Below, in pieces: positions 18,128-26,229 of a DNA stretch of 64,000 nucleotides. The notes below the pieces were generated by a model. The model worked only from the letters and a program-made list of their open reading frames with translations. It did no database searches and was not told where the DNA came from. This DNA comes from Defluviimonas salinarum (GTDB lineage: Bacteria; Pseudomonadota; Alphaproteobacteria; Rhodobacterales; Rhodobacteraceae). Each line of letters begins with the position of its first letter. The stretch's first letter is position 1. The translations under genes were made by a program, and so were the position numbers. Where the stretch lies: assembly GCF_026013545.1 (NCBI RefSeq), contig NZ_JAPDOG010000015.1, positions 1-64,000 of the forward strand, written 5' to 3'.

Positions 18128-18471
18128 GGGGTGGTCTCCCCGAGCGCGATCGTGTCGACCGGGGCGCTGATCGCGTTGAGGTCGAAGTCCGGATAGCCGA
18201 TCTGCGCGACCCCGCCGAACTGGCGCGGCTCCAGCGGCAGGAGCCCGAGCCGCGGGAAGCTGATGTCGGCCAGTTCGCGCAGCCGGTCGGGCCGGTTGAG
18301 ATAGGCCCATTCCGCATTCAGGACCCCGAGCGACTCCTTCAAAGTGCCGATCTCGCGTTGCAGGTCGCGCACGGCGGCAAGCTCCGCCTGGGTGCGGTAG
18401 TTCTCGCGATAGGCCCAGAAGGCCAGCCCCATCACGGCGAGAGCGGTCATGACCAGGAACAGGCTGCGCAT
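18124..18471 (-). CDS. ftsL: Cell division protein FtsL
   Basis: This 115-residue bitopic protein has an N-terminal membrane helix ([20 protein letters not shown]) followed by a predicted coiled coil (about 25-55, AELAAVRDLQREIGTLKESL) and the conserved LNRPDRLREL segment. FtsL pairs with FtsB and FtsQ in the periplasm. Position between rsmH and ftsI and the 1-base and 4-base overlaps on either side support the call as much as sequence does, since FtsL is poorly conserved. Confidence 0.93.
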   Translation of the reverse strand: MRSLFLVMTALAVMGLAFWAYRENYRTQAELAAVRDLQREIGTLKESLGVLNAEWAYLNRPDRLRELADISFPRLGLLPLEPRQFGGVAQIGYPDFDLNAISAPVDTIALGETTP

Positions 18472-19466
18472 CAGTGACGTCCTTCGAGCGCGGGTTTCGG
18501 CAGGCCCAGCGCCGCGCGGTCGGCGCGGCCGGCGGGGGCATCGGTGCGGATGCCCACCCGGAGCTTGGCCGAGCGGGCGCGGGGGTTGGCGGCCAGTTCC
18601 TCGTCGTCGGGACCGACCGCGCGGCGGGTCTTGAGCGTGAAGGCCGGCGGCACCTGCTCACGGGCGGGGGCATAGCGGCTGCCCTGCCCTTCGCCGCCGG
18701 AGCGGAGCTGGAAGAAGCGCTTGACGATCCGGTCCTCGAGCGAGTGGAAGGTCACGACGGCAAGCTGGCCACCCGGCTTCAGCGCCCGTTCGGCGGCCTC
18801 GAGCCCCTCGGCGAGCTGGCCGAACTCGTCGTTCACGGCGATCCGGATCGCCTGGAAGCTGCGGGTGGCGGGATGGCTCTGACCCGGTTTGGCGCGCGGC
18901 AGGCAGCGTTCGATCACCGCCACCAGGTCCAGCGTGGTCCTGAAGGGCCGGGCGGCGACGATGGCGCGGGCGATGCGGCGCGAGGCGCGCTCCTCGCCGT
19001 AATGAAAGAGGATATCGGCGATCTCGGCCTCGCTCGCCTCGTTCACGAGGTCCGCCGCCGTCGGACCGGTGTCGCCCATCCGCATGTCGAGGGGGCCGTC
19101 CTTCTGGAAGGAAAAGCCGCGCTCGGCCTGGTCGAGCTGCATCGAGGAGACGCCGAGATCGAGGACGACACCGTCCACGGGCGCGCCCGCCAGCGCGTCG
19201 AGATCGGAAAACGTACCCTCGACGAGCCTCAGCCGGCCGCCATAGGCGCCGGCCCAGTCGGCGGCCATGCGGAAGACGCTCGGGTCGCGGTCAATGCCGA
19301 TCACCAGGTCGGCGCCGGCCTCAAGCAGACCGCGCGTGTAGCCGCCCGCCCCGAAGGTGCCGTCGACCCAGGTGCCGGAGACAGGCGCGACCGCCTCAAG
19401 GAGCGGCCGCAGCAAAACCGGGATATGGGGGGCGGAAGCGGGTGTCGGTGTCTTGGCGGCCGCCAT
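18471..19466 (-). CDS. rsmH: 16S rRNA (cytosine1402-N4)-methyltransferase RsmH
   Basis: RsmH (MraW) methylates C1402 in the ribosomal decoding centre using S-adenosylmethionine. The 331-residue product has the SAM motif [34 protein letters not shown], and [12 protein letters not shown], and ends with the conserved [15 protein letters not shown] and SAKLRVGIR-type stretches. It lies 2 bases after mraZ and shares one base with ftsL. Confidence 0.97.
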
Positions 19467-19468
19467 CC

Positions 19469-19972
19469 CTACCCCCTCGACCGCGTCGGAAGGAGGCTGC
19501 GGGGATCGAAGTCATCGTCGTACTGCGCGGCGAGCTTGCGGGTGCGGGCGCCGGCCTTGTCCTGATAGGTCTCGGGCTTCCAGATCTTGAAATAGTCGCC
19601 GGCCGAGATAAAGAAGGCCTCGGAGGTGAGCCCGATCTTCTCGCGCAGCTTCTGCGGCAGGGTGAGGCGGCCGTCGTCGTCGATCTGCGCCTCGATCGAC
19701 TGGCCATGCATCAGTTCCTCGAGCCAGAGCCGCTGCGGCGAGCCGCGCTGCATGTCCTCGATCTGTTCGTCGATCTCTTCGATCGCCTTCATGGTGTAGA
19801 CTTCGAGCCAGTCCTGACCCGCGTCACCATAGACGATCACGATATTGGGGCGCAGGCCTTCCTTCCAGTCGGGATCCGAGGCCTCGATGACACGGCGGAA
19901 CGGCGCAGGGATGGAGACGCGGCCCTTCGCGTCCACCTTGTAGGTATCCGATCCTCTGAACCTGCGTGCCAA
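19469..19972 (-). CDS. mraZ: Transcriptional regulator MraZ (TTG start)
   Basis: MraZ is the DNA-binding regulator at the head of most dcw clusters and represses it in Escherichia coli. The 167-residue protein has two SpoVT/AbrB-like halves with DxxxR motifs: [13 protein letters not shown] (about 14-26) and [14 protein letters not shown] (about 98-111). The start is TTG at 19972, supported by AAGGAG nine bases upstream and by the N-terminus [14 protein letters not shown]; no ATG is in a suitable place. A candidate MraZ operator lies about 290 bases upstream. Confidence 0.94.
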
Positions 19973-20013
19973 CGGCCCGCGCTCCTTACCAGTCCCCTCC
20001 CCCCGAAATCACC

Positions 20014-20081
20014 GCCAATCCGCCCGCGGGGCCCTGAACGGACAACGGCGGATTGGGCTGCTGCCACTGCCCAATCCGCCG
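20014..20081. repeat. Perfect 13-bp inverted repeat plus a third half-site in the mraZ leader
   Basis: CGGCGGATTGGGC at 20046-20058 and its exact reverse complement at 20069-20081 are separated by 10 bases. A third copy of the half-site, GCCAATCCGCC, lies at 20014-20024 in the same orientation as the right arm. The structure is 42-110 bases upstream of the mraZ start. It could be an operator for a dimeric regulator or an RNA hairpin in a long 5' leader. No T-run follows on either strand, so it is not a simple terminator. Confidence 0.6.
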
Positions 20082-20253
20082 CCCTCGTCCCGTTTCCGGG
20101 TCCCATTGCTGGGCTCGTCCGGCTGCGCATGCCACCTGGGGGGATGTCTGCTCGCTTGCGCGCCGGATCTTTGTTCGATGAAAGCGGGTGCCTGTATGAA
20201 ACCTGACTTTCGCCTTCGGGGTCTTGCCGCCCCTCTGTCAGCCCGTCTTCATC

Positions 20254-20292
20254 GGTATGTATAGGGATGGCATGGGAATTCATGGGAAGCAA
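20254..20292 (-). promoter_or_regulatory. Candidate MraZ box overlapping the likely dcw promoter
   Basis: On the plus strand three GGGA motifs occur with exact 10-bp spacing: AGGGA at 20263, TGGGA at 20273 and TGGGA at 20283. The MraZ operator described in E. coli is three TGGGN repeats with 5-base spacers, giving the same 10-bp period. On the minus strand a TATACAT (20263-20257) could serve as a -10 element, placing the repeats in its upstream half, as expected for autorepression. The -35 element is unclear (TTGCTT at 20292-20287 is too far). Binding is inference. Confidence 0.5.
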
Positions 20293-20380
20293 GAAAAAAC
20301 TTGCGCATTAAGGTGACTATTGGCATTCGGGCGCAACTCAAGACAGGCCCAATCATTAGATCACTTGATTGATTTTTGGC

Positions 20381-20417
20381 ATATTTTGGGTTCTCAGAGA
20401 AGATTCGCCCAAAATAT
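20381..20417. repeat. 10-bp inverted repeat ATATTTTGGG / CCCAAAATAT
   Basis: Perfect arms at 20381-20390 and 20408-20417 flank a 17-base spacer, in an AT-rich stretch that stands out from the GC-rich surroundings. It lies about 410 bases upstream of mraZ and 220 bases from the mrp stop. It may be an operator; no regulator is recognised. Confidence 0.45.
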
Positions 20418-20635
20418 CGACATGGAATCGGAACCTGAGCTCGTCCCATGCATTCCCAGCTTTTTTCGAAGAAACTTCCGTTAGGTCAGGCCCGGCCGGC
20501 ACGCCTCATCGAGATTCCGTCGAAATTCGCGGATTCAGTCGCTTTACACGGCGAACGATTCGCTTTCGGCACCAGCCGAAACGCGATTTCCCATGAGATC
20601 CCGGCAGAACTCGGCCGGTCCCGTGATCTCCCGGA

Positions 20636-21703
20636 TCAGGCCATGCCGCCGGCAACAAGCCGGTGGGCGAGCCGGGCATAGGCTTCGGCTATCGGCCCCT
20701 CGCCCGAAGCGATCGGCGTGCCGCCGTCGCCCGCGAGCCGCACGTCGAGGCTGAGGGGGATCTCGCCAAGGAAGGGGACGCCAAGCTTCGCGGCCTCGGC
20801 CGCGACGCCGCCATGGCCGAAGATATGCGCCTCGTGCCCGCAATTGGGGCAAACATAGGTCGACATGTTCTCGATCAGGCCGAGGATCGGCGTCCTGAGC
20901 TTGCCGAACATGTCGATCGCCCGGCGGGCGTCGAGAAGTGCCACGTCCTGCGGGGTGGAGACGATGAGCGCGCCGGTGACATGGGACTTCTGGCAGAGCG
21001 TGAGCTGCACGTCGCCGGTGCCAGGCGGCAGGTCGACGATCAGCACGTCGAGCTCGCCCCAGGCGACTTGGCCGAGCATCTGCTGCAGCGCGCCCATCAG
21101 CATCGGGCCGCGCCAGACCACGGCCTCGTCCTCCTTCAGCATCAGGCCGATCGACATGAAGGTGACGCCGTGGGCCTTGAGCGGAACGATGGTCCTGCCG
21201 TCGGGCGAGGCGGGGCGTTTCGACACCCCCATCATGCGCGGCTGCGAAGGTCCGTAGATATCGGCGTCCAGGAGCCCGACCCGGCGGCCCTGGCGCGCGA
21301 GCGCGACCGCGAGGTTCGACGACACCGTCGACTTGCCGACGCCGCCCTTGCCGGATCCCACCGCGAGGATGCGGTCGACGCCGGCGATCCGCGCCGGGCC
21401 GGCCTGCGGCGTCGGGTGGCCGCCGATCTTGAGGCTCGGCGGCGCCTTTGGCGCCGGGCCATGTGCCGTCATCACAACAGAGACCGCGCCGACGCCGGGC
21501 AGCGCCTTCACGGCGGCCTCGGCAGCCTGCCGCAGCGGTTCCATCCGCCGCGCCATCTCGGGATCGGGAGCCTCGATCACGAACCGCACGGCATCGCCCT
21601 CGATCGAGAGCGCACGCACCAGATCGCGCGAGACGAGGTCGCCGCCATCGGGCAGCGTGAGGCGGCGGAGGGCGGCAAGGACGGTGTCGCGGCTGAGGCT
21701 CAT
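20636..21703 (-). CDS. apbC: Mrp/ApbC family iron-sulfur cluster carrier ATPase
   Basis: This is a P-loop ATPase that carries and delivers Fe-S clusters. The 355-residue product has an N-terminal MIP18/DUF59-like domain (about 1-80), then the deviant Walker A GSGKGGVGKST, the LLDADIYGPSQPRMMG switch, VDLPPGTGDVQLT, and the YVCPNCGH motif, whose two cysteines bind the bridging cluster. Length and domain order match bacterial Mrp. It stands alone, on the same strand as dcw but 663 bases upstream of mraZ. Confidence 0.94.
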   Translation of the reverse strand: MSLSRDTVLAALRRLTLPDGGDLVSRDLVRALSIEGDAVRFVIEAPDPEMARRMEPLRQAAEAAVKALPGVGAVSVVMTAHGPAPKAPPSLKIGGHPTPQAGPARIAGVDRILAVGSGKGGVGKSTVSSNLAVALARQGRRVGLLDADIYGPSQPRMMGVSKRPASPDGRTIVPLKAHGVTFMSIGLMLKEDEAVVWRGPMLMGALQQMLGQVAWGELDVLIVDLPPGTGDVQLTLCQKSHVTGALIVSTPQDVALLDARRAIDMFGKLRTPILGLIENMSTYVCPNCGHEAHIFGHGGVAAEAAKLGVPFLGEIPLSLDVRLAGDGGTPIASGEGPIAEAYARLAHRLVAGGMA

Positions 21704-21867
21704 CAGGTTCCCCTTCGTATCCGTGGAGCAATCTCACGGCCGGGGCGGCAAGGACAAGTGCCAAAGTCCGGCGGCGCGGCCGGTTCGGACAAGTTGCCGC
21801 AAGGGCAGGTAAAATCGCCGTGAAGTGCCATGCAATTGCTGCATGGCGGCAATGATTTCGTCAGGGA

Positions 21868-21896
21868 TTGTGCATCCGCAGCATGAGGTCCATCTA
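21868..21896 (+). promoter_or_regulatory. Candidate RpoH-type promoter of the DUF1127 / hairpin-array transcript
   Basis: TTGTGC at 21868-21873 and CCATCTA at 21890-21896 are separated by 16 bases. CCATnTA is the characteristic heat-shock sigma (RpoH) -10 box. A start near 21903 would give a leader of about 45 bases. In Rhodobacter sphaeroides the matching DUF1127-CcsR transcript is under RpoHI/RpoHII control, which fits. Confidence 0.6.
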
Positions 21897-21946
21897 GGGT
21901 CCAACAGCGGCGCAGATGGCGCCAATGATCCGAAAGAGGCACTACA

Positions 21947-22162
21947 ATGGCACATGCAACCGTTATCCGTGGCGTCGAGACCGGCCTTGCCGATCGCATC
22001 TCCGCCTTCTTCGCCGGCCTGCGCGACAGCCACCGGCGCTACAAGATGTACCGCCAGACCGTGAACGAGCTCCACGCGCTCACCGACCGCGAGCTGCACG
22101 ATCTCGGCCTGCACCGCTCGGCGATCGACTCGATCGCGCTCGAGGCGGCCTACGGCAAGTAA
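21947..22162 (+). CDS. DUF1127 small protein, host gene of the CcsR-like RNA array
   Basis: This 71-residue protein has a C-terminal DUF1127 arginine-rich domain: YKMYRQTVNELHALTDRELHDLGLHRSAI is typical, with the conserved L-x-x-L-x-D-R-E-L-x-D-[IL]-G-L-x-R core (about 42-60). AAAGAGG lies 7 bases before the ATG. In R. sphaeroides the equivalent small protein (CcaF1) is encoded on the transcript that is processed into CcsR RNAs and is reported to bind RNA. Here the hairpin array starts 10 bases after the stop codon, so one transcript is very likely. Confidence 0.9.
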   Translation: MAHATVIRGVETGLADRISAFFAGLRDSHRRYKMYRQTVNELHALTDRELHDLGLHRSAIDSIALEAAYGK

Positions 22163-22172
22163 GTTTCGCTTC

Positions 22173-22488
22173 CCGGGCTCTCTCCTCCTCCCCGAGCCCC
22201 GGAGCTTCGCGGCGACTTTCCTCCTCCCTGAAGTCGCCGCGTCCGATCGGGCCTGACAGGCCCAAAGAGTTGCGCCGGATCCCTCCTCCTCCCTGGATCC
22301 GGCGCCGTGAAATGCGGCGGTGGCCTCCTCCTCCCTGCCACCGCCGCATCTTCACCCTGATCGGCGGCCCACCCTCCCTCGGGCCGCTGGCGTGAAGATA
22401 GGCAGCACCCCTCCTCCTCCCTGGGTGCTGCCGGTCTTCACCGGAATGCAGCGGTCCCTCCCTCTCCCTCGGGACCGTGGTTGCGACT
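22173..22488 (+). ncRNA. CcsR/cuckoo-type RNA array: seven hairpins with CCUCCUCC-like loops
   Basis: Seven stem-loops follow the DUF1127 gene: 22173-22202, 22208-22241 (11 bp perfect), 22272-22305 (11 bp perfect), 22312-22349 (13 bp perfect), 22348-22399 (outer 8 bp, inner 7 bp), 22401-22432 (10 bp perfect) and 22452-22477 (7 bp). Stems differ in sequence, but loops are nearly constant: CTCCTCCTCCCT exactly in three, close variants in two, and degenerate CCCTCCC forms in the fifth and seventh. The loop is complementary to a Shine-Dalgarno GGAGG and equals the anti-SD core of 16S rRNA. This matches the CcsR RNAs (conserved CCUCCUCCC motif) and the related cuckoo RNA family, where each RNA has two such hairpins; here three or four RNAs may be cut from the transcript. 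Small extra hairpins without the motif lie at 22249-22263 and 22431-22444. Confidence 0.88.
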
Positions 22489-22516
22489 GGCGGCGCCCTT
22501 CCGGCGCCGCCTTTTT
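22489..22516 (+). terminator. Rho-independent terminator of the DUF1127 / CcsR-like transcript
   Basis: A perfect 9-bp GGCGGCGCC / GGCGCCGCC stem (22489-22497 and 22503-22511) with a 5-base loop is followed by TTTTT (22512-22516). It closes the hairpin array and marks the likely 3' end of the last RNA. Confidence 0.88.
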
Positions 22517-22540
22517 CGTTTCGGAAGATGATCCCGAGGC

Positions 22541-22561
22541 GGCCCCGTGCCGGGGCCATTT
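22541..22561 (+). terminator. Possible second terminator after the RNA array
   Basis: GGCCCCG (22541-22547) and CGGGGCC (22551-22557) form a 7-bp stem with a 3-base loop, followed by ATTTTCTT on the plus strand. It could back up the main terminator 25 bases upstream or limit convergence with the uvrD-type gene read from the other side. Confidence 0.4.
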
Positions 22562-22637: not shown

Positions 22638-24989
22638 TCAGAAGGGGATGTCGTCGGCCGCATCCGCGGAGACGATGAAGCTCGCCACGACATGCTTGGT
22701 GCCGGCCTTGTCGAAGGCGACCTCGAGCTTGTCGCCCTCTATGCCCTCGACGAAGCCGTAACCGAATTTCTGGTGGAAGACGCGGTCGCCCTCGGTGAAG
22801 GCCGAGACGGCGTCGAGGTCGATCACCACGTTGCGCGCCTCGCGCGGCTGGCTGACGGGGCGGGTCTGGCTGCGCTCCTGGAGCCGTTTCCAGCCCGGCG
22901 AGTTGTAGACATCGGCGCGCGCGGCGCGGTCCTCGATGCCAGCCGTCATTCCGGCGGCGCCATAGCCGCCGCCGTAGAGGCCGGGCGGGGTCAGGACCTC
23001 GACATGCTTCGCGGGCAGTTCGTCGATGAAGCGCGAGGGGAGCTGGCTTTGCCACTGGCCGTAGACCCGGCGGTTGCCGGCGAACGAGATCGTGCAGAGC
23101 TCCTCGGCACGGGTGATGCCGACATAGGCAAGGCGGCGTTCCTCCTCGAGGCCCCTGAGCCCGCTCTCGTCCATCGAGCGCTGCGAAGGGAAGAGCCCGT
23201 CCTCCCATCCCGGCAGGAAGACCACGGGGAATTCGAGGCCCTTCGCGGCATGGAGGGTCATGATCGTGATCTTCTCCTCGGCATCCTCGCTGTCGTTGTC
23301 CATGATCAGCGAGACATGTTCGAGGAAGCCTTGCAGATTGTCGAAGCTTTCCAGCGCCTTCACGAGTTCCTTGAGGTTCTCCAGCCGCCCCGGCGCTTCG
23401 GGCGTCTTGTCCGCCTGCCACATCGCGGTGTAGCCCGATTCGTCGAGGATCGTCTCGGCAAGGCGCACATGGTCGTAGTCAGGCGTCTGTGTGACCCGAT
23501 GCCAGCGGTCGACATTCTCGACGAAGGCGCGGAGTTGAGAGCCGCCCTTGCCGCCGATCTGGCCGGAGGCGACGCAGTAGCGCGCGCCTTCCAGCAGGCT
23601 CACGCCGTCCTCCCGCGCCTGGCGCTGGATCGTCTGCTGCGCCTTGTCGCCGAGGCCGCGCTTGGGCGTGTTCACCACGCGCTCGAAGGCGAGATCGTCG
23701 GCGGGCGAGACCGCGAGGCGGAAATAGGCCATCGCGTCGCGGATCTCGAGCCGTTCGTAGAAGCGGGGGCCGCCGATCACCCGGTAGGGCAGGCCGATCG
23801 TGAGGAAGCGGTCCTCGAAGGCGCGCATCTGGTGGGAGGCGCGGACGAGGATCGCCTGGGCGTCGAGGCTGCGCGGTTCCATGCCCCTTGAGCCGCGCTG
23901 GATGGCCTCGGCCTCCTCGCCGATCCAGCGCGCCTCTTCCTCGCCGTCCCAATGGCCGATGAGCCGCACCTTCTCGCCGCCCTGCGCCTCGGTCCAGAGG
24001 GTCTTGCCGAGGCGGCCGGCATTGGCCGTGATCAGGCCGGAGGCGGCGGCGAGGATATGTTCGGTCGAGCGGTAGTTCTGTTCGAGCCGGATCACCTGCG
24101 CGCCCGGGAAATCCTTCTCGAAGCGAAGGATGTTGCCGACCTCGGCGCCGCGCCAGCCGTAGATCGACTGGTCGTCGTCGCCGACGCAGCAGATGTTCTT
24201 GTGCTTGGCCGCGAGGAGGCGCAGCCAGAGATACTGGGCGACGTTGGTATCCTGGTATTCGTCGACGAGGATGTAGCGGAACCAGCGCTGGTATTGCTCC
24301 AGCACGTCGGGGTGCTGCTGCAGGATCGTCACGACATGCAGGAGAAGGTCGCCGAAATCGGTGGCGTTCAACGTCAGGAGCCGGGCCTGGTAGGCGGCGT
24401 AAAGCTCGGTTCCCATGTGGTTGAAGGCCGAGGCCTCGGACGAGGGCACCTGTTCGGGGCCCCAGGCGCGGTTCTTCCAGTGGTCGATGAGCCCGGCGAG
24501 CTGGCGCGCGGGCCAGCGCTTCTCGTCGATACTCGCCGCCGCGATGACCTGTTTCAGAAGGCGGATCTGGTCGTCGGTGTCGAGGATGGTGAAGTTCGAC
24601 TTCAGACCGACAAGCTCGGCATGACGGCGGAGGATCTTGACGGAGATCGAATGGAAGGTGCCCATCCAGGGCATCCCTTCCACGGTCTGCCCCATCAGCC
24701 GGCCGACGCGCTCCTTCATCTCGCGCGCGGCCTTGTTGGTGAAGGTCACGGCGAGGATCTCGTTCGGGCGCGCCTTGGCCCGCGCGAGAAGATGCGCGAT
24801 CCGCGCCGTCAGCGCGCGGGTCTTTCCGGTGCCGGCACCCGCGAGCATCAGGACCGGTCCGTCGAGCGTCTCGACCGCGGTGCGCTGCGCCGGGTTCAGC
24901 CCGTCGAGATAGGGTGCGGGCCGCGCGGCCATGGCGCGGGCGGAGAGGGAAGCGCCCTCGAAGGCGTCGCTGTCGTCGAAACTGCTCAT
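22638..24989 (-). CDS. uvrD: UvrD/PcrA-type superfamily 1 DNA helicase
   Basis: This is a 3'-5' DNA helicase acting in nucleotide excision and mismatch repair and in clearing replication forks. The 783-residue product has Walker A GAGTGKTRAL (about 50-59), the VDEYQDTN motif II, GDDDQSIYGWRGA motif III, LEQNYRST motif IV, TLHAAKGLEFPVVFLPGWEDG motif V and a Y-V-G-I-T-R-A-E motif VI, plus a PcrA/UvrD-like C-terminal tail (GDRVFHQKFGYG). ATG at 24989 (MSSFDDSDAF) is preferred to a longer frame with 35 unlikely extra residues. UvrD and PcrA cannot be told apart with certainty here. Confidence 0.95.
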   Translation of the reverse strand: MSSFDDSDAFEGASLSARAMAARPAPYLDGLNPAQRTAVETLDGPVLMLAGAGTGKTRALTARIAHLLARAKARPNEILAVTFTNKAAREMKERVGRLMGQTVEGMPWMGTFHSISVKILRRHAELVGLKSNFTILDTDDQIRLLKQVIAAASIDEKRWPARQLAGLIDHWKNRAWGPEQVPSSEASAFNHMGTELYAAYQARLLTLNATDFGDLLLHVVTILQQHPDVLEQYQRWFRYILVDEYQDTNVAQYLWLRLLAAKHKNICCVGDDDQSIYGWRGAEVGNILRFEKDFPGAQVIRLEQNYRSTEHILAAASGLITANAGRLGKTLWTEAQGGEKVRLIGHWDGEEEARWIGEEAEAIQRGSRGMEPRSLDAQAILVRASHQMRAFEDRFLTIGLPYRVIGGPRFYERLEIRDAMAYFRLAVSPADDLAFERVVNTPKRGLGDKAQQTIQRQAREDGVSLLEGARYCVASGQIGGKGGSQLRAFVENVDRWHRVTQTPDYDHVRLAETILDESGYTAMWQADKTPEAPGRLENLKELVKALESFDNLQGFLEHVSLIMDNDSEDAEEKITIMTLHAAKGLEFPVVFLPGWEDGLFPSQRSMDESGLRGLEEERRLAYVGITRAEELCTISFAGNRRVYGQWQSQLPSRFIDELPAKHVEVLTPPGLYGGGYGAAGMTAGIEDRAARADVYNSPGWKRLQERSQTRPVSQPREARNVVIDLDAVSAFTEGDRVFHQKFGYGFVEGIEGDKLEVAFDKAGTKHVVASFIVSADAADDIPF

Positions 24990-25092
24990 GGGTCGCAATC
25001 TAGCGGCAACGGGGTGCGAATAAAAGACGAGTTCACACTCTGTTCCAGAGCTTTCGCTGGACAAGCGGAGGGGTGGCGCGGCGTAGTTCGGC

Positions 25093-26229
25093 ATGGACCT
25101 GCACCAGCGTTACCCGGCGATTTCCGACCTCAAGGCCCGCGCGCGGCGGCGGATCCCGCATTTCGTCTGGGAATATCTCGACAGCGGCACCGGGACCGAG
25201 GCGACGCTGCGGCGCAACCGGGCAGAGCTCGACACGGTGCTCTTTCGTCCCTCGATCCTGCATGGCGAGTTCAACCCGGACCTGACGGCGCGGCTCTTCG
25301 GTCACGACTTCCCCCTGCCCTTCGGCATCGCCCCGGTCGGCATGTCCGGGCTGATCTGGCCCGACGCCGAACGCCTGCTCGCGGCGGCGGCGGGCAAGGC
25401 GGGGCTGCCCTATTCGCTTTCGACGGTCGCCAGCCAGACGCCAGAATTCGTCGCCTCGGCGCTCGGTCAACACGGATGGTTCCAGCTCTACCCGCCGCGC
25501 GACCCGGCGACCCGCACCGACATCCTGAGACGAGTGAAAGCGGCGGGATATTCGGCGCTGATCCTGACCGTCGACGTGCCTGTGACGAGCCGGCGCGAAC
25601 GTCAGGTTCGATCCGGTCTGACGCAACCGCCGAAAATCACCCCGAGGCTGCTGGCGCAGGTGGCACGTTGCCCGATCTGGGCAGCCGGCACGGTTCAACT
25701 GGGAATGCCCCGGATGCGGTTGATGGAAGACTATTCCGATGAGCGCGGGGTCCGCTCCTCCACGGCGCATATCGGATATCTCCTGCGCATCTCGCCCGAC
25801 TGGGACTACCTGAAGGCGCTGCGCGACGCCTGGGAGGGGCCGCTGATCGTCAAGGGGGTACTCAACGCCGACGACGCGGCGCGGCTTCAGGACGAGGGCG
25901 CCGACGCGATCTGGGTCTCGAATCACGCCGGCCGCCAGTTCGACGCCGCGCCTGCGACGATCGAGGCGCTGCCGGCGGTCCGCGCCGCGACCACGCTGCC
26001 GGTGATCTTCGACAGTGGCATCGAGGGCGGGCTCGACATTCTCAGGGCGCTCGCGCTTGGTGCGGATTTCGTGATGCTGGGGCGCGCCTGGCATTACGCG
26101 CTCGGCGCGCTCGGCGCGGCAGGTCCGGCGCATCTGGTGGAGATTCTGGCCCAAGACATGGCCACCAACATGGGCCAGATCGGCGCAAGGCAGCTTGCCG
26201 ATCTCGCCGGGTGTCTTCGAGGGCGATGA
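25093..26229 (+). CDS. FMN-dependent alpha-hydroxy-acid dehydrogenase (LldD-like)
   Basis: This 378-residue protein belongs to the L-lactate dehydrogenase / glycolate oxidase family, which oxidises 2-hydroxy acids with FMN. Seen: the N-terminal FVWEYLDSGTGTEATLRRN, APVGMSGLIWPDAE, LILTVDVPVTSRRERQVRSG, and VSNHAGRQFD with the catalytic histidine. Two spots differ from LldD: the usual SNHGGRQLD is SNHAGRQFD, and DSGI(R) is DSGIEGG, replacing an arginine that normally contacts FMN or substrate. The fold is clear but substrate is open; L-lactate is only one possibility. It is divergent from uvrD with about 100 bases between. Confidence 0.88.
   Translation: MDLHQRYPAISDLKARARRRIPHFVWEYLDSGTGTEATLRRNRAELDTVLFRPSILHGEFNPDLTARLFGHDFPLPFGIAPVGMSGLIWPDAERLLAAAAGKAGLPYSLSTVASQTPEFVASALGQHGWFQLYPPRDPATRTDILRRVKAAGYSALILTVDVPVTSRRERQVRSGLTQPPKITPRLLAQVARCPIWAAGTVQLGMPRMRLMEDYSDERGVRSSTAHIGYLLRISPDWDYLKALRDAWEGPLIVKGVLNADDAARLQDEGADAIWVSNHAGRQFDAAPATIEALPAVRAATTLPVIFDSGIEGGLDILRALALGADFVMLGRAWHYALGALGAAGPAHLVEILAQDMATNMGQIGARQLADLAGCLRGR

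Follow-up and report, generated by a model that had tools for sequence, protein, structure and literature searches.

What kind of RNA locus is formed by the row of C/U-rich stem-loops behind a small DUF1127 gene of Defluviimonas salinarum, and how would its RNAs act? The locus was analyzed in a window of 64,000 nucleotides (positions 1 to 64,000 of contig NZ_JAPDOG010000015.1), to which all coordinates refer. The gene (21947..22162, plus strand) encodes a CcaF1-like protein of 71 amino acids (Pfam PF06568, E-value 5.3e-12) and is followed by seven C/U-loop hairpins with a spacer hairpin and then by a terminator (22163-22516). On the divergent side of the gene lies a Mrp/NUBPL-type ATPase gene (20636-21703, minus strand), and beyond the array a convergent UvrD-type helicase gene (22638-25094, minus strand). 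By the DUF1127 protein, the closest genus-named relative is Defluviimonas sp. WL0050 (locus L010, 76 % identity), and the protein of one MAG shares 77 % identity; the NCBI taxonomy places the name Defluviimonas under Albidovulum, Paracoccaceae. The genome has eight DUF1127 matches, six of them above the Pfam cut-off, and an array is found only at the gene in the window. The other seven lack an array within 540 nt downstream and the promoter boxes described below within 450 nt upstream, with the exception of a single CCTCCCC-loop hairpin at one of them (L256).

Two minus-strand ORFs elsewhere in the window (19469-19972 and 18471-19466) resemble mraZ and rsmH, as we assume from their protein sequences, and the region 19973-20640 (minus strand) lies upstream of both. 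Since the sRNA UpsM is described as arising from the mraZ 5' UTR in R. sphaeroides (PMC7866481), a UpsM homologue may be present about 1.5 kb from the array.

All seven hairpins, announced in a preliminary description of the DNA, were recovered by reading and folding the plus strand. Hairpin 1 (22170-22204, core 22175-22199, loop TCTCCTCCTCCCC) has the weakest stem, with a 6 bp core, and is followed by hairpin 2 (22208-22241, loop CCTCCTCCCT). The loop CTCCTCCTCCCT is carried by hairpin 3 (22272-22305), by hairpin 4 (22312-22349, with a GTGAA/TTCAC arm that extends to about 22355) and by hairpin 6 (22392-22441, a long stem). Hairpin 5 (22361-22390, loop ACCCTCCCTC) and hairpin 7 (22448-22481, loop TCCCTCTCCCTC) have degenerate loops, located at 22371-22380 and 22459-22470 as had been reported. 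Thus CCTCCTCC or CTCCTCCC is present in five of the seven loops, which we call canonical, and two are degenerate. The array is closed, again as described before, by an intrinsic terminator (GGCGGCGCC-CTTCC-GGCGCCGCC-TTTTT, 22489..22516, plus strand). A further terminator-like stem (22541-22557) lies in the gap that separates the array from the convergent helicase gene. The arms GUGAA.../...UUCAC occur on both hairpin 4 (22307-22355) and hairpin 6 (22392-22441), and because these arms are shared, they could pair with each other across hairpin 5 in an alternative fold.

When the region 22163-22520 was folded, a free energy of -201.1 kcal/mol was obtained, compared with -137.8 +/- 5.1 kcal/mol for 100 dinucleotide shuffles (z = -12.35), none of which was as stable. 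When both strands of the window were scanned, every canonical-loop hairpin fell inside the array (eight tile-level entries, corresponding to five hairpins); the same scan gave 15 tile-level entries for looser C/U-loop hairpins outside it.

At the Rfam gathering thresholds, a tRNA was the sole match in the window. At a permissive threshold, the covariance search with the CcsR1 model (RF02791) gave four tandem matches over the array (21.8-51.2 bits; E-values from 2.1e-11 to 0.01, plus strand), which divide it into units of two hairpins. Unit 1 (hairpins 1 and 2, 22163..22245) scored 33.9 bits (E-value 2.6e-6), unit 2 (hairpins 3 and 4, 22267..22352) 51.2 bits (E-value 2.1e-11), unit 3 (hairpins 5 and 6, 22356..22439) 31.9 bits (E-value 1e-5) and unit 4 (hairpin 7 and, as second member, the terminator hairpin, 22444..22516) 21.8 bits (E-value 0.01). 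A model named R1, derived from the unit 2 sequences of 13 genus relatives and of the window itself, also found four units in the array (units 1, 3 and 4 at 38.5, 42.6 and 29.8 bits), besides one match antisense to the array (E-value 0.0076) and one elsewhere in the window (E-value 0.13). The CcsR/cuckoo class proposed earlier was therefore right with respect to the four tandem units behind a 71-aa DUF1127 gene, but every score lies under the curated cut-off. As the best unit (51.2 bits) falls below the gathering score of 65.3 bits, the array is not a member of RF02791 in the curated sense of Rfam; that score is passed in just 10 of the 295 family genomes. The ar14/NfeR1 model (RF02344) matched unit 2 with 45.7 bits and gave a further match of 28.8 bits, both below its gathering score of 58.8 bits.

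Single weak matches to RF02791 mean little, because 12 of 14 control genomes have one at E ≤ 10; at E ≤ 0.001 and at E ≤ 0.01, one control (Thermus composti) has a match. Eleven weak CcsR1 matches are found elsewhere in the genome of the window, and at these loci no canonical-loop hairpin was present, with loose C/U loops in three. The array has the anatomy of a CIN1/cuckoo locus: the DUF1127 gene stands directly upstream on the same strand, the tandem two-hairpin units carry CCUCCUCC-type loops (four units, the second hairpin of unit 4 being without the motif), and a Rho-independent terminator lies at the 3' end. We consider it very probable that the locus is of the CIN1 type, as found in a Defluviimonas/Albidovulum-like member of the Rhodobacter family.

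The stems of the array had been said to change while keeping their pairing. This was examined for unit 2 (hairpins 3 and 4), using the window and 13 genus relatives. The alignment of these 14 sequences was not fitted to the structure, which was taken from one of them; of 16 candidate sequences, L046 and L047 were left out because their arrays have a different layout, and another two had their 3' ends trimmed. In this alignment, 83 % of the cells were paired, compared with 38-55 % in slid versions. Changes on both sides of a pair were seen in 30 cells, compared with 13.2 in shuffles, and none of 500 shuffles reached as many, a comparison whose meaning is limited by the relatedness of the 14 sequences. 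Pairing amounted to 94.9 % of the cells in the second (B) hairpin and 62.7 % in the first (A) hairpin, where several rows were out of register. For unit 2, compensating change in the stems is thus borne out.

Arrays of this kind are widespread. A CcsR1 match at E ≤ 0.001 is present in 243 of the 295 family genomes, and at E ≤ 0.01 in 25 of 41 genomes (the window's own and 40 relatives). A total of 119 loci were examined (the window's, five on named contigs and 113 others), most of which were chosen for their high scores, so that strong matches are over-represented. An array was found in 116 and none in three. The number of motif hairpins per array ranges from 1 to 14, the commonest being eight, six and two; it is even in 86 of the 116 arrays and odd in 30. 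Within the genus of the window, 17 of 20 loci were counted at six to eight, and a count of seven was obtained, besides the window, for six genus relatives (L049, L050, L057, L058, L059 and L061); such counts vary with the stretch folded, and those of L050 and L051 shift by one. With a search profile built from 46 proteins of the same loci, 97 of the 116 arrays were found to have an upstream DUF1127 ORF that ends no more than 400 nt away, and for 19 none was found.

The array had been regarded as expanded and its odd number of hairpins as unusual, neither of which holds against these counts. The number is seven because the array consists of 2 + 2 + 2 + (1 + terminator) hairpins, and it is odd because the second hairpin of the fourth unit is a plain terminator. 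A general rule, by which a separate terminator closes the odd arrays and a motif hairpin with a T-run the even ones, was only partly supported. Among the even arrays 49 of 86 fit the rule and 37 showed neither ending, whereas among the odd arrays six had a separate terminator, in seven the last motif hairpin was followed by a T-run, and 16 showed neither ending; one odd array near a contig end was left out, and plain terminators, for example in L058, escaped the simple detector. Loop decay did not differ clearly between A and B hairpins of the genus (13 of 76 and 7 of 55 degenerate, respectively, as assigned by a crude stem rule).

Two further hairpins had been singled out as unusual. The one at 22249..22263 (GGGCCT-GAC-AGGCCC, plus strand, from the fold) is an inter-unit spacer hairpin, and many relatives have a short hairpin between units, with varying sequence, although some arrays are without a long spacer. 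When the first long spacer (16-60 nt) was folded for 88 arrays, the mean energy was -12.0 kcal/mol, compared with -7.6 kcal/mol in shuffles, with z < -1 in 77 arrays and z > 0 in one. These figures are approximate because the spacers were picked automatically, and among the 60 that were printed at least one (L101) contains a missed motif hairpin and several contain two hairpins. The supposed hairpin at 22431-22444 is not a separate element; in the minimum free energy fold these bases lie within the 3' arm of the long stem of hairpin 6 (GTGAAGATAGGCAGCACCC / GGGTGCTGCCGGTCTTCAC), and a long stem at this position recurs in relatives such as L058. The features that had been called unusual are thus explained, and the locus is a real CIN1/CcsR array of ordinary size, one more example of a widespread kind. 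A CcsR unit is better described as hairpin A plus hairpin B and often a spacer hairpin, which could flag or protect the site of cutting between units.

Upstream of the gene, two conserved elements were found on the plus strand. Box 1 (TGCTGCATGGCGGCA, 21837..21851) is a distal, operator-like site with one mismatch to TGCTGCANNGCAGCA; the family form is CTGCATRGCAG, from which the window also departs by one base. Box 2 (ATTGTGCATCCGCAGCAT, 21867..21884) spans the putative -35 element (TTG) and part of the spacer. It is followed by a putative -10 element, CCATCTA (21890..21896), deduced from conserved CATnTT and CAAC columns of the anchored alignment, so that transcription probably starts near 21903. 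The cassette promoters share ATTGTGCA-NN-Y-GCAGCAT, and the block of two boxes is common to the upstream regions of the genus. An inverted repeat, GCCATGCA-ATTGC-TGCATGGC (21827-21847), overlaps box 1; by eye, its arms show paired changes in L050 and L062 and a broken pair in L051 and L064.

The conservation was measured in 96 upstream regions, which come from related loci, so the counts are not independent. TTGTGCAN3GCAGCA is present in 19 of 20 genus loci and 63 of 76 others (0.00 expected from dinucleotide shuffles), and CTGCN3GCAG in 14 of 20 (0.10 expected) and 42 of 76 (0.50 expected), respectively. A relaxed form of box 2, TTGTGCN4GCAGC, occurs in 89 of the 96 regions and was used as the alignment anchor; conservation inside it is forced by the anchoring, and the following counts refer to free positions. 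In these 89 loci, A precedes the anchor in 86 and follows TTGTGC in 83, a pyrimidine precedes GCAGC in all 89, and A follows GCAGC in 88. The four fixed bases of the putative -10 element CATnT are conserved in 58-83 loci. In 54 loci, CTGCATRGCAG starts 28-29 nt before box 2. An RpoH-like pattern, TTG...CC(N0-2)AT, was found in 58 of the 96 regions, compared with 4.3 in mononucleotide shuffles. Relative to the putative start, the TTG of the window lies at about -35, which fits the RpoHI/RpoHII pattern described for a second DUF1127 gene of R. sphaeroides (PMC10673084); the -12 element is CAT, where the published pattern has TAT.

Box 2 can serve as a fingerprint for such loci within the genus. 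Its 16-mer TTGTGCANNNGCAGCA has one exact match in the genome of the window, namely box 2 itself, and 25 exact matches in 22 genus genomes, compared with 0 for the reversed control; G004 and G005 lack the 16-mer. At 22 of these 25 sites, a DUF1127 ORF with C/U-loop hairpins follows downstream. In the case of the remaining three, L216 meets the contig end after 70 nt, while L213 and L221 show no such gene and are also the sites without a pyrimidine before GCAGCA. Three of the 22 sites (L220, L222 and L224, in genomes G020, G009 and G008) mark a second small cassette, in which the same box 2 precedes a different DUF1127 gene with two or three C/U-loop hairpins and, by eye, a terminator-like stem. 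Class-wide, the 16-mer with Y occurs in 48 of 385 genomes (54 matches, compared with 15 for the reversed control), and 46 of the 54 matches lie outside the family. Of these 46, 28 were inspected; no DUF1127 ORF was found within 500 nt downstream at any of the 28, three of which have a loose C/U-loop hairpin. The in-family locus L253 (G111) has neither such an ORF nor a C/U-loop hairpin; further in-family matches are present in G246, G091 and G330.

Because a sigma factor with a large regulon is not expected to leave so private a mark, we infer from these sequence patterns that a further regulator acts on the cassette promoters. In the literature consulted on the family, sigma-factor input alone appears, and no paper on control of CcsR loci by PhaR or LsrB was recognized in our search; a further review (PMC10371769) mentions CcaF1 and CcsR, and the promoter boxes and the spacer hairpin may already have been described. 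We tentatively propose, with slightly more doubt than assurance, that one dedicated factor reads both boxes across the family (CTGCATRGCAG and, 28-29 nt downstream, ATTGTGCA-NN-Y-GCAGCAT) and that the spacer hairpin marks the cut between units. In its boldest form, the proposal would identify the factor as the PHB-granule repressor PhaR or a specialized relative of it.

PhaR is described as binding CTGCNNNGCAG in R. sphaeroides and the promoter of the mmgR sRNA, at a site containing ATTGTGCACCGCAGCAT, in S. meliloti (PMC12542648), and the consensus given for B. diazoefficiens is TGCRNYGCASMA (PMC6201568). CTGCNNNGCAG occurs in 56 of the 96 cassette upstream regions (0.6 expected from dinucleotide shuffles), the window's own box 1 being one base off, and the ATTGTGCACCGCAGCAT of mmgR corresponds to the half-sites of box 2. 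However, neither box agrees with the Bradyrhizobium consensus: the Y of TGCRNYGCASMA is replaced by a purine in box 1 (TGCATGGCGGCA), and box 2 (TGCATCCGCAGCA) is longer by one base in its centre. Sites in agreement with TGCRNYGCASMA, at standard spacing, were seen in the genome of the window at PHA-type genes (L175, L185 and L186, on contigs C4 and C67); they lie close to genes for a MaoC-type protein and a phasin, and between phaC and phaZ. Co-occurrence was also considered as a way to assign the boxes to PhaR, but phaR (PF07879) is present in 80 of 80 genomes tested, and since none lacks it, its presence does not discriminate.

The main alternative reader would be a separate LsrB-type redox regulator. 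In S. meliloti, LsrB is described as activating NfeR1 via TGCA-N6-GCAT (T-N11-A box) at about -72 to -57 (PMC10746234). Box 2 contains TGCA-N6-GCAT and the RNA controlled there is of the same loop class, but box 2 overlaps the presumed promoter core. Among PhaR, an LsrB-type regulator and a third factor, we cannot decide. With either of the first two, anti-Shine-Dalgarno RNAs would be tied to carbon storage or redox state, and PhaR in particular would integrate the carbon storage state with RpoH stress signals on these RNAs. The conserved operator-like boxes, together with the shared spacer hairpin, are the parts worth following up.

How the RNAs would act can be approached from their published relatives, from which stress induction, processing, the role of the protein and the pairing mechanism are taken. 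CIN1 of R. sphaeroides is described as ccaF1 with CcsR1-4, an RpoHI/RpoHII promoter, a Rho-independent terminator and RNase E processing (PMC10253847). For the CcsR RNAs, cutting by RNase E, trimming or degradation by PNPase and interaction with Hfq are reported (PMC8625941, PMC7866481, PMC8307010), and flhR mRNA is given as a target (PMC8307010). The published role of CcaF1 is mixed: it takes part in CcsR maturation (PMC10253847), yet raised amounts interfere (PMC8307010). We infer that this whole scheme holds in the organism of the window. A single transcript, probably made under stress by an RpoH-type sigma factor, would encode the CcaF1-like protein and four CcsR-type 3' UTR units. As in R. 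sphaeroides, RNase E would cut between the units, the DUF1127 protein would modulate the cutting, and PNPase would trim or degrade the pieces. The anti-Shine-Dalgarno loops of the released RNAs would then pair with purine-rich ribosome-binding sites and lower translation or stability, with repetition of the unit raising RNA dosage and redundancy.

Pairing of the loops with mRNAs is, by this analogy, probably the main mechanism. No specific target was found with the extended Shine-Dalgarno pattern, GGGAGGAGG-N3-10-ATG, which gave nine matches compared with four in the reversed control. The pattern GGAGGAG-N4-10-ATG gave 133 matches compared with 32; these figures show only that Shine-Dalgarno-like sites lie before ATG. 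For NfeR1, three CCUCCUCCC motifs are reported to silence ntrB by pairing, and a mutant in all three seeds no longer silences (PMC10746234).

The same CIN1-type identity is shared by a reading in which the array is mainly a sponge or decoy, where copy number would matter and not individual pairing. The C/U loops would bind and titrate an RNA-binding protein, be it the DUF1127 protein, Hfq or a further one, or, by mimicking the 16S 3' end, soak up mRNAs in general. One loop copied on divergent stems, up to 14 times in an array, is what such a reading expects. However, repetition does not favour titration, because loops complementary to the Shine-Dalgarno sequence are expected for pairing too. 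The NfeR1 loops are described as silencing named mRNAs by pairing and CcsR as targeting flhR, and since the published relatives act by loop-mRNA pairing, we regard the decoy as the weaker reading and rather unlikely.

Far less likely is that the hairpins mainly protect the DUF1127 mRNA or pace its decay as a stable 3' UTR, with loops that have no targets in trans. The position of the hairpins in the 3' UTR directly after the ORF would suit this role, but a near-constant loop on changing stems is not needed for it, and the homologues of R. sphaeroides are reported to be released as separate RNAs with an mRNA target (PMC7866481, PMC8625941, PMC8307010). To a mere chance cluster of GC-rich C/U-loop hairpins without RNA function we give next to no credence, even though the octamer CCTCCTCC is found 469 times in the genome, counting both strands, and C/U-loop hairpins of the looser type are also present in other parts of the window. 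Against it stand the z-score of the fold, the confinement of the canonical-loop hairpins of the window to this one place and, in the comparative data, which make chance very unlikely, the spread of CcsR1 in the family and the covariation of unit 2.

Two of the closest known systems are RNA loci. The alpha-r14 sRNAs (NfeR1; RF02344, ar14) share with the array the CCUCCUCCC anti-Shine-Dalgarno loops on divergent stems, whereas NfeR1 of Sinorhizobium is described as a single three-hairpin RNA transcribed from a sigma-70 promoter of its own. Compared with CIN1 of R. sphaeroides as published, the array in the window scores below the RF02791 cut-off, its last unit consists of one motif hairpin and the terminator, and two of its loops are degenerate. 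Like the published ccaF1-CcsR1-4 locus, it combines a 71-aa DUF1127 gene, four units in the 3' UTR, a Rho-independent terminator and an RpoH-like -35 element.
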